Shown here in pieces: positions 1 through 8,527 of a stretch of 33,993 nucleotides of DNA. The position numbers and the translations under genes are program-made. Position 1 is the first letter of the stretch; the number at the start of each line of letters is the position of its first letter. This DNA comes from Candidatus Saccharimonadota bacterium. Lineage in GTDB: Bacteria > Patescibacteriota > Saccharimonadia > Saccharimonadales > AWTP1-31. Location: contig JAGQMX010000006.1 in assembly GCA_020428425.1 (NCBI GenBank), forward strand, positions 1 to 33,993, written 5' to 3'. The notes beneath the pieces are model-generated. The model saw only the letters and a program-made list of their open reading frames with translations. It had not been told where the DNA came from and did no database searches.

Positions 1-132
1 CTACTAAAAGGTCAATACCAAGATCCTAAGATGCAAGAAGAGCTCAACACAACTGAAGGCCGACAAGATATCGCCTCCAGACTTCGTTCAGAGAAAATCG
101 TTAAACTACTAACAGACAAAGCCGGCAAATAG
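1..132 (+). CDS. tig: Trigger factor, C-terminal fragment (probable)
   Basis: Only the last 43 codons are present; the gene enters from the left edge and stops at TAG (130-132). The visible protein is a charged helix containing QYQDPKMQEEL and EGRQDIASRLRSEK and ending in TDKAGK. This resembles the C-terminal helical arm of ribosome-bound trigger factor, a peptidyl-prolyl isomerase and chaperone for nascent chains. The neighbouring convergent clpP supports the call, because tig and clpP are often adjacent in bacteria. Too little is present to see a PPIase or ribosome-binding domain, so another helical protein cannot be excluded. Confidence 0.6.
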   Translation, partial: LLKGQYQDPKMQEELNTTEGRQDIASRLRSEKIVKLLTDKAGK

Positions 133-785: not shown

Positions 786-791
786 GAAGAT

Positions 792-820
792 ATAGTAATC
801 AATTAATTAGCACTCGTCAA
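792..820 (-). promoter_or_regulatory. clpP promoter, leaderless type
   Basis: On the minus strand, TTGACG (815-820) and TACTAT (792-797) are separated by 17 bases, a strong sigma-70-like arrangement. Only 6 bases lie between the -10 box and the clpP ATG, so transcription should begin at or next to the start codon. The -35 box lies inside the CIRCE element. Confidence 0.8.
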
Positions 821-833
821 TAGTGAGTGCTAA
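807..833. promoter_or_regulatory. CIRCE operator (HrcA binding site)
   Basis: TTAGCACTC (807-815), nine bases, then GAGTGCTAA (825-833) is an exact match to the CIRCE inverted repeat bound by the heat-shock repressor HrcA. It covers the clpP -35 and part of its spacer, and ends 3 bases before the -35 of the outward rpoB promoter. Repression of clpP is the direct expectation; an effect on rpoBC is inference. hrcA itself is not in the window. Confidence 0.93.
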
Positions 834-836
834 TTC

Positions 837-866
837 TTGCTAATAGTACCAATTTTTTGATACAAT
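837..866 (+). promoter_or_regulatory. rpoBC promoter
   Basis: TTGCTA (837-842), an 18-base spacer and TACAAT (861-866) point towards rpoB. The predicted transcript starts near 873, giving an untranslated leader of about 250 bases. The -35 is back to back with the clpP -35 across the CIRCE element. Confidence 0.6.
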
Positions 867-1124
867 CAAACAACAACTTAGCTACTGCAGATATATCTGT
901 AGTAGTATATACAACGTAAGTCTAAATACTTGCAATGTAACTCCTAAAACAGTACTATTTATCTAAGAAGTAGCGTTAGCGGGCACTGCTGTGTTAGCAA
1001 AAATTTAGTAACACATTGGCAATCACCACTTAGAATATCTTCTCACTACCAAGAGAAACAGATAAATAATAAGAAATCAAAATAATACAAACTTAAAGTT
1101 TAACTAACGGAGTATTAATAGCGT
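867..1124 (+). promoter_or_regulatory. Long rpoB 5' leader with hairpins
   Basis: There is no convincing gene here. Near the expected 5' end, 882-905 is a near-perfect inverted repeat (CTACTGCAGATA against TATCTGTAGTAG, the single exception being a G-U pair in RNA). A second hairpin joins TGTGTTA (990-996) to TAACACA (1009-1015). GGAG (1109-1112) lies 12 bases before the rpoB ATG. The leader is long for such a compact genome and may carry regulation, but I recognise no known RNA family. Confidence 0.4.
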
Positions 1125-4100
1125 ATGGCAAAAAGTTCAGTGAGTAAGAGTTCAAGTAATCGAGTCCAATTTACCGAAACAAAAAATATTGTAGACCTAC
1201 CAAACCTGGTAGATCACCAGAATAAATCATGGAACTGGCTAGTAGAAGAAGGCCTAGGCGAGCTTCTTGCAGAAATTAGTCCAATAGAGGACTATACTGG
1301 CACAAAATTATCACTATCTTTCAAAGATTATCGCTTTGAAGAACCAAAACTAAGCGAAGCAGAAGCTAGAGAAAACAATGTTAGTTACGATGCCCCACTT
1401 AAAGCAACTGTTGAATTAACAAACAAAGTTACTGGTGAAGTTAAAGAACAAGAAATCTATCTTGGTGACTACCCATGGATGACCGAACGCGGTACTTTTG
1501 TAATAAATGGTGCCGAACGTGTGGTAGTCAGTCAGCTTATCCGATCTGCAGGTGTATTCTTTACGCTAGATAACTCAACCGCTACCAAACGCTATGGTGC
1601 AAAAGTTATCCCGGGTCGTGGAGCTTGGTTAGAATTTGAAACTGCTGCCAACGGTGCTCTATTTGTGAAAATTGATCGAAAACGAAAAATTGCCGTTACA
1701 ACATTACTTCGGGCACTTGGTATGAACGAAGCTCAAATGAAAGAAACTTTTTCTCACGTAGATACTGGAAAAAACAGCTACATTAAAACAACACTAGATA
1801 AAGACCCTTCAAAAGGTACTAATGATGCACTTATTGAAGTATATCGCCGTCTTCGACCTGGTGATCTAGCTACTGTCGATAACGCTCGAAGCCTAATCGA
1901 GAACATGTTTTACAACTTCAAGCGTTTTGATTTTTCTAGAGTTGGTCGCTACAAAATCAATAAGCGTCTAGACATAGATATTCCAAATACAACTAAAAAC
2001 CGAGTAATGCGACTGGAAGATCTTCAAGCCATAATTGCTGAAATTATTCGACTATCTAACAGTGGAGAACCGGCCGACGATATAGATAGCCTAGCTAACC
2101 GCCGAGTAAAACTAGTCGGTGAACTTGTCCAACGACAATTTAGAATTGGACTTCTACGAATGGAGCGAAATACCAAAGACCGAATGAGTATGTGTGAAAT
2201 AGAAACCGTTACTCCAGGTCAGTTAATAAATGCTCGGCCTATAGTAGCTGCCGTCCGCGAATTCTTTGCTAGCTCTCAGCTATCTCAATTCATGGACCAA
2301 ATTAACCCACTAAGTGAATTGGCTCACAAACGACGATTAAGCTCGATGGGTCCCGGTGGACTATCTCGAGAACGTGCTGGATTTGAAGTACGTGATGCTC
2401 ATGCTACTCACTACGGTAGAATTTGTACGGTTGAAACACCTGAAGGTGCCAACATTGGACTAGTTCTTAACCTTGCTAGCTATGCTCGTATTAACGAATA
2501 TGGCTTTATTGAGACACCTTATAGGAAAGTTATCAATGCATTGCCAGCTAAAAAGCTAGCCGGCCACATTGCCAGCTACAATCTTGAAGATGAAAACGGT
2601 AAAGTAATTGTCGCTAAAGACAAAGTTATTACTGAAGCTGCCGCCAAAAAACTAGAGAAAATTAAGTCTCAGGTGACATGGCCAGTCAAAGCTCATGTGA
2701 CGAACAATATTGAATACCTAGATGCCGCAGAAGAAGACAAAGCAGTAATCGCTGGTGCTACTGAAGCCATCGACGACAAAGGCTTTTTCATCAAAGAAAG
2801 AGTCAGTGCTAGAAATCGACTGGTAGCTGGAGAAGTAGATGCCAATGACGTTACTCACATGGATGCCTCCCGGCGTCAAATTATTGGATCCAGTGCCGCC
2901 CTAATTCCATTTATTGAGAAGAACTATGTTTACCGCTCACTAATGGGTAGTAACCAGCAACGCCAAGCTGTTCCACTAATTTGCCCACAATCTCCAATTG
3001 TTGGAACCGGTATGGAAGCTGAAGTTGCTCAGAACTCTGGACAGCTAATTGTTGCTGAAGACAAAGGACAAGTGACTAAGGCTAATGCCAATGAAGTAAC
3101 AGTTAAATACGGAAAAACTTCAAAGACTTATTTAGCTCAACACTTTGTTCGCAGTAACGAAGGTACTAGCATTAACCAAAAAGTTAAAGTTGAAACCGGC
3201 GATAAAGTTAAAGCTGGCGATACTCTAATAGAAGGAATGTCAGTTGCTGATGGTGAGTTAGCTCTTGGAAAAGATCTATTAACTGCCTTCATGCCATGGA
3301 ACGGCTACAACTTTGAAGATGCTATCATCCTTAGTCGAAGGCTAGTTGAAGATGACACTCTAACCAGCGTACACATCGTAGACTATATGACGGAAGTTCG
3401 TGAAACAAAGCTAGGACCTGAGATTGTCACTCAAGATATTCCTAATGTATCGGAAGAAGCTCTTCGTCATCTTGATGAAGACGGCATTGTTAGAATCGGT
3501 GCTGAAGTTCATCCAGGAGATATATTAGTTGGTAAGATTACTCCAAAAGGTGAACAAGAACTAAGTAGTGAAGAACGCTTGCTTCGAGCCATCTTTGGTG
3601 AAAAAGCTAAAGAAGTTCGTGATACATCTCAGCGAATGAGTAATGGTAAACACGGTAAAGTTGTTGGCGTAAAAGTCTTCAGCCGTGAAAACGGCCATGA
3701 GCTTAAAGCTGGCGTTATCATGCAAATACAAATCTTTGTTGCTCAAATGCGTAAGATTGCAGTTGGAGATAAACTTGGTGGACGTCATGGAAACAAAGGT
3801 GTTATCGCTCGAATTCTACCAGTTGAGGACATGCCATTCAACGAAGATGGAACTCCAGTAGATATCGTGCTGAACCCCTTAGGTGTACCAAGTCGTATGA
3901 ATATTGGTCAGCTATTTGAAACTCACCTAGGTATGGCAGCCAAAGCCCTAGGCATCAAAGTAGCTACCCCTCCTTTCAACGGAGTTCCTACTGAGAAAAT
4001 CAAATCTATGCTTAAAGAAGCAGGACTACCAGAAGATGGCAAACAACAGCTATATGATGGTCGTACTGGTGAAGCGTTTAGCGAAAAAACTACAGTTGGT

Positions 4101-4712
4101 AGTATGTATATGATTAAACTAAACCACATGATTGCCGATAAAATCCACGCTCGTTCAACTGGACCATATACTATGGTTACCCAGCAACCGCTAGGCGGAA
4201 AAGCGCAAAATGGTGGTCAGCGATTCGGAGAGATGGAAGTTTGGGCTCTTGAAGCTTATGGAGCTAGCAATACCCTACAGGAAATGCTAACTATTAAATC
4301 CGACGATGTGTTCGGACGATCAAAAGCTTATGAGTCAATCATCAAGGGAACTGAGATTGTCGGACCCAAGGTACCAGAAAGCTTTAACGTTCTTGTTAAA
4401 GAACTACAAGGGTTAAATCTTAAAGTTGACCTAATTACATCTGATGGAAGCATCGATGCAGAGAATATTCTTTCCAAGAACATCAAAGACGAAAGTGATC
4501 ATATGTCAACCGTAGATGTACCGGAACCAGAAGCTTCAACCGTAGACGTCACTACAGACAGCGTTGAAGATGAATTCGAAATACTTGATCTAGACGATCA
4601 TAAACCAGACAACAAAGCTAAACCATCAGATGATAGCCCCGATAATGCCGAACAAGATAAGGCCGATCAAGAGATAGAAATAACCAAAGATCAAGAAAGT
4701 GAGGTCAAATAA
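1125..4712 (+). CDS. rpoB: DNA-directed RNA polymerase subunit beta
   Basis: A 1195-residue beta subunit that forms half of the RNA polymerase active-site cleft. Diagnostic segments are clear: the rifampicin pocket (SQFMDQINPLSELAHKRRL), ERAGFEVRDAH, ETPEGANIGL, the GEKAKEVRDTS segment and the catalytic-core block GRHGNKGVIARILP. The last roughly 75 residues are an acidic, low-complexity tail rich in Asp, Glu and Lys. Such a tail is not part of the conserved fold and is probably disordered. In the rifampicin pocket the equivalents of E. coli Asp516, Ser522, His526 and Ser531 are kept, while Asn518 is Ile and Leu533 is Met. The TAA stop overlaps the rpoC ATG by one base, indicating translational coupling. 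Confidence 0.98.
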   Translation: MAKSSVSKSSSNRVQFTETKNIVDLPNLVDHQNKSWNWLVEEGLGELLAEISPIEDYTGTKLSLSFKDYRFEEPKLSEAEARENNVSYDAPLKATVELTNKVTGEVKEQEIYLGDYPWMTERGTFVINGAERVVVSQLIRSAGVFFTLDNSTATKRYGAKVIPGRGAWLEFETAANGALFVKIDRKRKIAVTTLLRALGMNEAQMKETFSHVDTGKNSYIKTTLDKDPSKGTNDALIEVYRRLRPGDLATVDNARSLIENMFYNFKRFDFSRVGRYKINKRLDIDIPNTTKNRVMRLEDLQAIIAEIIRLSNSGEPADDIDSLANRRVKLVGELVQRQFRIGLLRMERNTKDRMSMCEIETVTPGQLINARPIVAAVREFFASSQLSQFMDQINPLSELAHKRRLSSMGPGGLSRERAGFEVRDAHATHYGRICTVETPEGANIGLVLNLASYARINEYGFIETPYRKVINALPAKKLAGHIASYNLEDENGKVIVAKDKVITEAAAKKLEKIKSQVTWPVKAHVTNNIEYLDAAEEDKAVIAGATEAIDDKGFFIKERVSARNRLVAGEVDANDVTHMDASRRQIIGSSAALIPFIEKNYVYRSLMGSNQQRQAVPLICPQSPIVGTGMEAEVAQNSGQLIVAEDKGQVTKANANEVTVKYGKTSKTYLAQHFVRSNEGTSINQKVKVETGDKVKAGDTLIEGMSVADGELALGKDLLTAFMPWNGYNFEDAIILSRRLVEDDTLTSVHIVDYMTEVRETKLGPEIVTQDIPNVSEEALRHLDEDGIVRIGAEVHPGDILVGKITPKGEQELSSEERLLRAIFGEKAKEVRDTSQRMSNGKHGKVVGVKVFSRENGHELKAGVIMQIQIFVAQMRKIAVGDKLGGRHGNKGVIARILPVEDMPFNEDGTPVDIVLNPLGVPSRMNIGQLFETHLGMAAKALGIKVATPPFNGVPTEKIKSMLKEAGLPEDGKQQLYDGRTGEAFSEKTTVGSMYMIKLNHMIADKIHARSTGPYTMVTQQPLGGKAQNGGQRFGEMEVWALEAYGASNTLQEMLTIKSDDVFGRSKAYESIIKGTEIVGPKVPESFNVLVKELQGLNLKVDLITSDGSIDAENILSKNIKDESDHMSTVDVPEPEASTVDVTTDSVEDEFEILDLDDHKPDNKAKPSDDSPDNAEQDKADQEIEITKDQESEVK

Positions 4713-7700
4713 TGCGTCGCTATACATCAGGAACCGATATTGCAGACTTTGATGCAGTCAGATTAGCCGTAGCCAGCCCTAGTGATATTCTAGACTGGTC
4801 TCACGGTGAGGTAACAAAACCAGAAACAATAAATTATCGAACCCAAAAGCCAGAACGCGACGGATTATTCTGTGAGAGAATTTTTGGACCAGTAAAAGAC
4901 ATCAGTCCACATGATGCTAAATATAAAGGTGTCCGATCTCGCGAAGCTGCTGTAGATAAAAAAGGTGAAGTGGTCACTAAATCTATCGTTCGACGGGAAC
5001 GAATGGCTCATATCACCCTAGCTAGCCCTGTTGCCCACATTTGGTTCCTACGAGGAACACCAAGTGCCATGGGCCTAGTCCTTGGTATGACAGTAAAGAA
5101 TCTTGAGCGAGTAGCCTATTTCGCAAACTACATCATTAAAGAAGTAAACACTGAAAAACGCGATCAAATCCTAGCTGACCGAGAAGCTGAATTTAATGCC
5201 GGCAAAGAAGCTATCAAGCTTCGATTCGAAACAATGGCAAAAGAAGAAAAAGCCAATCTAAAAGAACTTGCCGAGCTGCAAACTAAGGAACTAGAAGACC
5301 TTACAATAGAGTTTGAAGAAGTCCAAAATCAACTTAGCTCGCTAAATCGCCTTCAACTAATTAGTGAAAGCGATTACCGTAATCTACCAAGCGAATACCG
5401 TAGCCTAATTAAAGTAGGTATGGGTGGAAGTGCCTTAAAAGAACTACTCGATGAAGTAAACCTTGAAGATGTTATTGCTGATCTAAATAAAGAAGCTGAC
5501 TCAACTAAGGGTATGCGTAAGAAAAAGATTATGAAGCGATTAAGACTTCTAGAAAATATGCTTCGGGCTGGCATAACACCTGGCTCACTATGTGTGTCAG
5601 TACTACCTGTAATCCCACCAGATCTTCGTCCAATGGTTCAACTTACTGGTGGCCGATTTGCTACTAGCGACCTTAACGATCTATACCGAAGAGTAATTAA
5701 CCGAAACAATCGTCTAAAGAAATTGATTGATTTGAATGCTCCAGAAGTAATCCGGCGCAATGAACAACGAATGCTTCAAGAAGCCGTTGATGCGCTAATC
5801 GACAACAACAATGCCCGATCAGGTCGGGCAGTTGCAGCAACTGGTCAAAGACGTAGATTAAAATCACTCAGTGATATGTTAAAAGGTAAGCAAGGACGTT
5901 TCCGTCAGAACCTACTTGGTAAACGAGTTGACTACTCTGGACGATCAGTTATTGTTTCTGGACCAGAATTGAAGATTAACCAATGCGGTCTTCCAAAAAT
6001 GATGGCTCTTGAACTTTTCAAACCATTCGTGATTGGACAACTAATAGCTCAAGAATATGCTCACAATATAAGGTCAGCTTCTAGAATGATCGACGCCGGT
6101 GAAATTGAAGTTTGGGATGCCCTGGACGAAGTAATTAAAGGGAAGTACGTACTACTTAACCGGGCACCCAGTCTTCATAGGCTTAGTATCCAGGCTTTTC
6201 AACCAGTACTAATTGAAGGAAAAGCAATTCAGCTTCATCCGCTAGTATGTAAAGGTTTTAATGCCGACTTTGATGGTGACCAAATGGCTGTGCATCTCCC
6301 ACTAAGCGATGCTGCTCAAGACGAAGCAAAGAACATAATGTCAGCCAGCATGAACTTGCTAAAACCAGCCGATGGATCTCCAATCCTGCATATCGAGCAA
6401 GATATTGTGCTAGGTTGTTACTATCTGACCTACGACCGACCAGGTACTGACGAGAAAATTAGACAATTCTCTAATATTGACGAAGCCATAATGGCTCTGG
6501 ACCAAGGTAGTATCCAATTACAAAGCCCAATTTCGATAACATTCCGAGGTTCTAAAAGAACTACAACTCTAGGTAGAGTATTGTTCAACGAAATATTCCC
6601 AGAAGACTTCGCCTACCAAGAGGATGTCATGACCAAGAAAAAGATTGCTGCAGTTATGGCACAAGCCTACGATAAATACGGCCAAGCAATTACCGCAGAA
6701 ATCGCTGACTCAATTAAAGATATAGCATTCAAGTACGCTACCAAATCAGGCTTATCCATGGGAATGGATGACTTCAGAGAAATCAAGGGACTTGAGAAAA
6801 TGTTAGATAAAGGTGAAGAGAAATCTATCACTATTAGTGACCAATTCGATGAAGGTTTAATTACCGAAGAAGAACGCTACCGTCTAACTATCGAAAACTG
6901 GCAGAACGTTGTATCTGAAGTGCAAAGCGTACTAAGCGACCAATTCGTAAAAGAAGATAGTGCGATGTCCATCGCTGTAGTCTCTGGTGCACGTGGTAAC
7001 ATCGGTCAGGTTATGACCGCCGTTGGTATGCTGGGTATCACTACTGATGCTACAGGGCGAGCTATCGAGCTTCCAATTCGATCTAACTATAAAGGTGGCT
7101 ACACTCCACTAGAATATTTCACAGCCACTCGTGGTGCCCGAAAAGGTATGATCGATACAGCTCTTAAGACTGCTGACTCTGGCTATCTAACCCGAAGATT
7201 AGTCGATGTATCGCAAGATGTATTTACTATTGATGAGGATGAGGATGATCCAGGCTTTGCAATCTATCGAGCAGATGCTGAAATCATTGGCGTTCCTTAT
7301 GGTTCTAGGTTGCGTGGACGGTTTGCTGCTGAAAATATTGCAAAACTAATCAAGCGTGGTGAGCTAATAACTCAAGAAGTTGCCGATAAGATTGAAGCAG
7401 ACGATAAACTAGACGGCGTTAAAATAATGAGCGCCCTTAGTAGTACTAGTGTTCGTGGTGTGGGACGTAAATCATACGGTGTTGACCCAGCAACCGGGAA
7501 TCTAGTAGCTCGTCACCATCCTATTGGTGTTATTGCAGCTCAAAGTATAGGTGAACCCGGTACTCAGTTAACCCTAAAGACTTTCCACTCTGGTGGTGTA
7601 GCAGGTGATGACATTACTACTGGACTACCTCGTGTCGAAGAATTGTTTGAAGTCCGAACTCCAAAAGGTCAAGCCTTCTTAGCAGAAATTGATGGAACAG

Positions 7701-8527
7701 TTAGTACTTGGGAAGACGGAGAAAAATACGTCGTTCAAATAACTACCGACAAGAACAGCAGGAAAGAATTGCCTCTAAAAGGCCGAACTCCGCAAATTGC
7801 CAGTGGTAGTGAAGTTGCCATAGGTGATGTAATAGCTGCTAATGATGATGGAGCAAATCCATTAATTGCCTCAATCGCAGGTTCGGCGGAAATTACCGAT
7901 AAATCTATCGTAATAGTTCCAGCTAAGCAGAGTGCTGTAAAATATGAAATTCCAGGCTTCAAGCAAGTTGTTGTCAAAGAAGGCGACACTGTTAAGGCTG
8001 GCGATCGACTAACTAATGGTTCTATTAATCTACACGAATTAATTGAGCTAAAAGGTGTGGAAGCGACTCAGCGCTACATCATGAACGAAATTTTAAGTAT
8101 CTTCGCCTCACAAGGTCAAAACATTGCAGATAAGCACCTGGAGATCATTGTTAGACAAATGTTCAGTAGAGTCCAGATTGAAGATGCTGCAGATAGTGAA
8201 TTTGTTACTGGTGACATAGTAAGTAAACTAGCGGTTGTCGAAGCCAATGAAGCCTTAGTAAAAGCCAAGAAAAAGCCGGCCAAGTATGATCAGCTACTAC
8301 TTGGAATTACCAAAGCTTCTCTATCTACCGACTCTTTCCTAAGTGCAGCCAGCTTCCAAGATACAACTCGCGTTCTAATTGCTGCTGCTACTAGCGGTAA
8401 AGTTGACCACCTTTACGGTCTAAAAGAAAACGTAATCCTTGGTCGCCGAATTCCAGTCGGTACTGGCTATGAAGATCCTGAAGCGGAGTTAGAAGACGAA
8501 GTAATCGAAGAGGTTGCGGCGATCTAA
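4712..8527 (+). CDS. rpoC: DNA-directed RNA polymerase subunit beta-prime, lacking both zinc sites
   Basis: A 1271-residue beta-prime subunit carrying the catalytic magnesium loop NADFDGD at residues 517-523. Other conserved blocks include [31 protein letters not shown] and the bridge-helix/trigger-loop region ([36 protein letters not shown]). A charged helical insertion spans about 145-270. Unusually, every zinc ligand is replaced without length change. In the N-terminal zinc finger the four E. coli cysteines (70, 72, 85, 88) align with Pro66, Asp68, Val81 and Lys84. In the second site Cys888, 895 and 898 align with Ser911, Gly918 and Ser921, and the Cys814 region (DEDEDD) is acidic and Cys-free. 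The fold is otherwise intact, so this is a functional enzyme, not a pseudogene. The next promoter lies within its last codons. Confidence 0.98.

Follow-up and report, generated by a model that had tools for sequence, protein, structure and literature searches.

A predicted HrcA operator of clpP and a separate promoter and structured leader of rpoBC at a divergent Saccharibacterial locus

The clpP operator and the gene order around it

We analyzed a DNA stretch of 33,993 nucleotides (the window), which is contig C68 of a 773-kb assembly in 97 contigs that is 89% complete (genome G000). By rpoB, the nearest named relative is an uncultured Saccharibacterium. The window opens with the C-terminus of a tig-like gene, followed by clpP in reversed orientation, a CIRCE element, and rpoB (Table 1); rpsL, rpsG, and fusA lie downstream from rpoB-rpoC. 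The divergent orientation of clpP and rpoB recorded in the initial annotation was confirmed.

Table 1. Genes and predicted regulatory features at the start of the window
Feature	Positions	Strand	Basis or remark
3' end of a presumed tig, collinear with the trigger-factor-like gene that precedes clpP in relatives	1..132	+	C-terminus LLKGQYQDPKMQEEL...GRQDIASRLRSEKI matches the upstream ORF in L095, L096, L097
clpP, 204 aa	171..785	-	PF00574, E = 5e-77
clpP -10, TACTAT	792..797	-	Identical in congener G089; 6 bases 5' of ATG
CIRCE, predicted HrcA operator of clpP	807..833		0 mismatches; kept upstream of clpP
clpP -35, TTGACG	815..820	-	Inside CIRCE spacer; TTG-type hexamer also at relatives' clpP-linked sites
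TTGCTA-18-TACAAT, probably non-functional	837..866	+	rpoBC promoter of the initial annotation; deleted in congener; chance P = 0.24
rpoBC promoter, TTGCAA (930-935), 17 bases, TACTAT (953-958)	930..958	+	Positional orthologue of relatives' promoter; kept in G089
Structured leader RNA of rpoBC (model R1)	964..1052	+	Covariation and covariance-model matches; no Rfam match
rpoB	1125..4712	+	Pfam RNA_pol_Rpb2 domains
rpoC	4712..8527	+	Pfam RNA_pol_Rpb1 domains

The CIRCE element spans 27 bases and reads TTAGCACTC-N9-GAGTGCTAA, with all 18 arm positions matching and a spacer of 9 bases. It stands alone in the window, where shuffled sequences lead one to expect 0.02 elements at up to 3 mismatches. 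The overlap of this perfect element with the clpP -35, described in the initial annotation, holds, and the hexamer lies inside the CIRCE spacer. In the direction of clpP, the promoter reads TTGACG (820-815), 17 bases, TACTAT (797-792), ATCTTC, and ATG. The same architecture recurs in relatives: TTGAC occurs in the spacer at 35 of the 48 clpP-linked sites, and a TTG-type hexamer lies in or at the spacer at 44 of them. In many genomes 5-8 bases separate the end of the -10 from the clpP ATG (785-797 on the minus strand in the window, and the clpP starts of the relatives), a distance from which the clpP mRNA is predicted to be leaderless or nearly so.

We wondered how widely this arrangement is shared. 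We found rpoB in 80 genomes and read the upstream DNA in nearly all of them; clpP lay near rpoB in 60 loci. Of these 60 loci, 48 have a CIRCE no more than 250 bp 5' of clpP. Six of the 12 misses were loci in which the sequence read reached at most as far as the clpP start; the other six were real misses, of which one belongs to the Saccharimonadales and five to different orders of the class. Within the Saccharimonadales, 44 of the 45 assessable loci carry CIRCE upstream of clpP. These observations identify CIRCE 807-833 as the operator of clpP, predicted to bind HrcA and to belong to an ordinary HrcA/CIRCE regulon.

In 58 of the 60 loci clpP and rpoB are co-directional; the two divergent cases are G000 and its congener G089. 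In two relatives from the same family (G069 and G288), the tig-like gene, CIRCE, clpP, and rpoB all point in the same direction, and the relatives keep CIRCE beside clpP, on the side of clpP that faces away from rpoB. The upstream gene is presumably tig, judged by the likeness among the loci and to trigger-factor sequence. The comparison indicates that the cassette of CIRCE and clpP, which lies between tig and rpoB, is inverted in this genus, and because the divergent layout is limited to the genus, it is recent. An assembly artefact is an unlikely source, given that a separate genome, G089, shows the same layout.

Co-directional genes raise another way of connecting heat shock to rpoBC: in the relatives, clpP transcription derepressed by heat might run on into rpoBC, a coupling that the inversion would have removed in this genus. 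In most cases 35-127 bp separate the clpP stop codon from the leader motif of rpoB, and a simple scan detected a terminator-like hairpin in 0 of 24 adjacent loci; with the shared orientation in 58 of 60 loci, read-through is thus possible there. However, rpoB has a strong conserved promoter of its own (see below), in several relatives the two genes are 600-2500 bp apart with other sequence in between, and termination may have escaped the simple scan or may occur inside the leader. The idea is also inapplicable to the layout of the window itself. We therefore regard indirect coupling as a tentative and rather doubtful proposal, one that concerns the relatives and is compatible with CIRCE acting as the clpP operator.

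The rpoBC promoter and its leader RNA

In relatives, TTGACA-like and TATAAT-like hexamers lie directly 5' of a conserved motif, (A)AGAAGTAG, with a 17-base spacing in 45 of 54 leaders; in most of the 54, TTGACA-17-TATAAT stands immediately 5' of GAAGTAG. At the same position the window has TTGCAA/TACTAT, a weaker promoter than that of most relatives, and G089 has TTGCAT-17-TACTAT. The comparative weakness of the window promoter would accommodate an additional promoter closer to CIRCE.

The initial annotation had placed the rpoBC promoter just there, with a -35 that begins 3 bases past CIRCE, and had proposed that one repressor dimer could act on both clpP and rpoBC. If the 837-866 promoter were real in this species, HrcA would repress the two transcripts jointly and couple heat stress to transcription capacity. 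The hexamers exist as letters: TTGCTA (837-842) begins 3 bp past the CIRCE end, TG precedes the TACAAT -10 (861-866), and the weakness of the conserved promoter speaks for the same idea. However, a global alignment of G000 and G089 showed that CIRCE, the 930-958 promoter, and the leader are kept, whereas the stretch with TTGCTA/TACAAT is deleted in G089, the only congener. In addition, shuffled versions of 834-966 hold at least one match of the TTGCTA/TACAAT class in 24% of cases (P = 0.24), a chance-level match. On these two grounds we rejected 837-866 as the rpoB promoter. CIRCE lies beside the rpoB promoter in no co-directional relative. In the window, too, CIRCE neither overlaps nor adjoins the conserved promoter: the distance from the CIRCE end to the conserved -35 is 96 bp, too far for CIRCE-bound HrcA to be expected to reach the 930-958 promoter. 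The rpoB start is thus predicted to lie away from CIRCE, the rpoBC half of the dual action is unsupported, and joint repression appears very improbable. A heat-shock link to RNA polymerase synthesis through CIRCE is rejected.

Downstream from the conserved promoter lies the leader element (AAGAAGTAG), which is ∼85 nt long and is opened by the conserved GAAGTAG-type motif. Its RNA follows the pattern AAGAAGUAGUGUAAG...GGG...CCC...CUUAG...CUUCGCGCGAA. A covariance model built from 15 leaders with a hand-set structure gave 56 matches in 81 loci; besides the window, the leader occurs upstream of rpoB at L094-L163. In a search of 145 genomes of the phylum, five members of the order, the genome of the window among them, carried a single copy of the leader each, always at the rpoB position. 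A marginal match outside the class was seen at L191 (G341:C1:127779-127847, 24.5 bits).

Covariation argues for a structured RNA. The structure-fitted alignment of model matches, which by its construction leans to the structure, contains 118 double-sided pair-keeping changes versus 48.5 in shuffled alignments (0/500), and slid controls gave at most 41. An unfitted MAFFT alignment of 15 sequences contains 16 double-sided changes versus 9.1 in shuffled alignments (1/500), driven by a UAAG:CUUA / UACG:CGUA helix. RNAalifold found no consensus structure on an unconstrained MAFFT alignment of 36 sequences. A search of Rfam 15 with the window leader gave no match at E up to 1, and four relatives gave just two sub-threshold antisense-RNA matches, both in one locus. 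The leader thus resembles the structured mRNA leaders of Rfam 15 in being a structured, covarying element upstream of an essential operon, but it differs from them in matching no family. A literature search for an rpoB leader of this kind found no paper.

In the large family f2 (for example L151, L154, L157, and L159), a CACTA complementary to the 5' UAGUG of the leader is enriched downstream of it; over all families, 13 of 53 leaders have it against 2.7 expected. The enrichment suggests an additional pairing, CACTA:UAGUG, that would cross the GAAG:CUUC helix and form a pseudoknot or a switch.

The most likely role of the leader RNA is control of rpoBC expression; as a candidate element, it could sense a ligand or serve the autoregulation of RNA polymerase synthesis in Saccharimonadales epibionts. 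We lean toward the view that this undescribed, lineage-specific structured leader RNA, rather than HrcA, controls rpoBC in the Saccharimonadales; it would begin at or near the 5' end of the transcript. The leader is a more novel observation than the CIRCE-clpP association.

The heat-shock regulon and hrcA

The genome of the window contains five CIRCE sites, and a reversed-pattern control gave 0. The sites lie at clpC (after nusA), groES-groEL (twice), ftsH (where tilS ends), and clpP; translated ORFs gave the names of the clpC, groESL, and ftsH loci. In the congener G089, CIRCE precedes hrcA-grpE, dnaK, dnaJ, groES, clpC, clpP, ftsH, and hsp20. The search for further sites that the initial annotation called for thus found four others in G000, at heat-shock and protease genes, but the repressor gene was missing from the assembly: a profile search of G000 gave no PF01628 or PF03444 match. 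In G089 the gene order is guanylate kinase, hrcA, grpE, and dnaK. The guanylate-kinase gene of G000 breaks off at residue 201 of 243, where contig C81 ends, and contig C82 ends within dnaK. Because the genes that flank hrcA and grpE by the G089 order both break at contig ends, hrcA and grpE of G000 probably fall in an unassembled gap, and the apparent lack of hrcA, which the initial annotation would have counted against HrcA control, is best read as a gap in the assembly.

A true loss of hrcA, leaving CIRCE as an unbound relic, agrees with the unmatched profiles, but the flanking genes are cut at the ends of C81 and C82, perfect or near-perfect sites stand at five heat-shock positions, and the congener retains hrcA; we rejected this reading as scarcely credible. 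More widely, hrcA is present in 282 of 295 genomes of the class, G089 included. The conserved site architecture, the coherent regulon, and this wide occurrence of hrcA strongly support the predicted control of clpP by HrcA.

Five genomes (G134, G163, G201, G263, and G289) have no PF01628 match at 91-98% completeness, yet each has 3-5 CIRCE sites; a diverged HrcA, a gap, or another repressor are the alternatives.

A model for the locus and its relation to known systems

Taken together, these results make it very likely that CIRCE is the HrcA operator of clpP, released upon heat, that rpoBC is served by its own promoter and leader, and that the divergence arose by cassette inversion. Sequence comparison underlies the operator, the promoter architecture, regulon membership, the inversion, the rpoB promoter, and the leader; we infer HrcA binding, the heat response, and the transcription start sites. 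At normal temperature, an HrcA dimer on CIRCE would cover the clpP -35 in the spacer and so deny sigma-70-type RNA polymerase access to the promoter. In response to heat or unfolded protein, HrcA would leave CIRCE, and clpP would then be transcribed from a start at or beside its ATG. Induction would be shared with clpC, groESL, and ftsH and, in the congener, also with hrcA-grpE, dnaK, dnaJ, and hsp20. Transcription of rpoBC would start from 930-958, beyond the reach of CIRCE-bound HrcA, and proceed into the conserved structured leader RNA. The divergent layout itself stems from inversion, in this genus, of the segment with CIRCE and clpP that lies between tig and rpoB; it would remove any clpP-to-rpoB read-through and creates no link between the two.

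The model describes a coherent single-repressor heat-shock regulon in ultrasmall Saccharibacteria, with the clpP -35 contained in the spacer of its operator. At the same time, it does away with an attractive but mistaken connection from heat shock to the synthesis of RNA polymerase: rpoBC is probably controlled by the conserved promoter together with a covarying leader RNA that has no Rfam family.

In Gram-positives, CtsR is the stress repressor of clp genes (clpP and clpC) and its operator is the CtsR heptad repeat. The Saccharibacterial regulon likewise places clp genes under a predicted stress repressor, but the operator found in the window is CIRCE. A search of mostly open-access literature found no relevant paper on HrcA/CIRCE in Saccharibacteria.

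Control of groESL and hrcA-grpE-dnaK through HrcA and CIRCE is well established, as in Bacillus subtilis (groE/dnaK) and delta-proteobacteria (PMC545781). The Saccharibacterial regulon shares with these the operator, the groESL and hrcA-grpE-dnaK targets, and a winged-helix HrcA; it differs in adding clpP, clpC, ftsH, dnaJ, and hsp20 and in having the clpP -35 inside the CIRCE spacer. Extended HrcA regulons with the dnaK operon, clpB, and lon are found in genome-reduced Mollicutes (PMC5138195). There, too, a single CIRCE repressor acts on chaperones and proteases in small genomes, but the Saccharibacterial protease genes are clpP, clpC, and ftsH, and lineage and promoter layout also differ.

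The HrcA of G089 contains a winged helix that resembles Thermotoga maritima HrcA (1STZ; E = 5.5e-18 over residues 2-89), and it has ∼236 aa versus 338 aa for the T. maritima protein. The Saccharibacterial HrcA at L173:5617-6324 is ∼100 residues shorter than T. maritima HrcA, and of the PF01628 profile it matches only positions 105-215.
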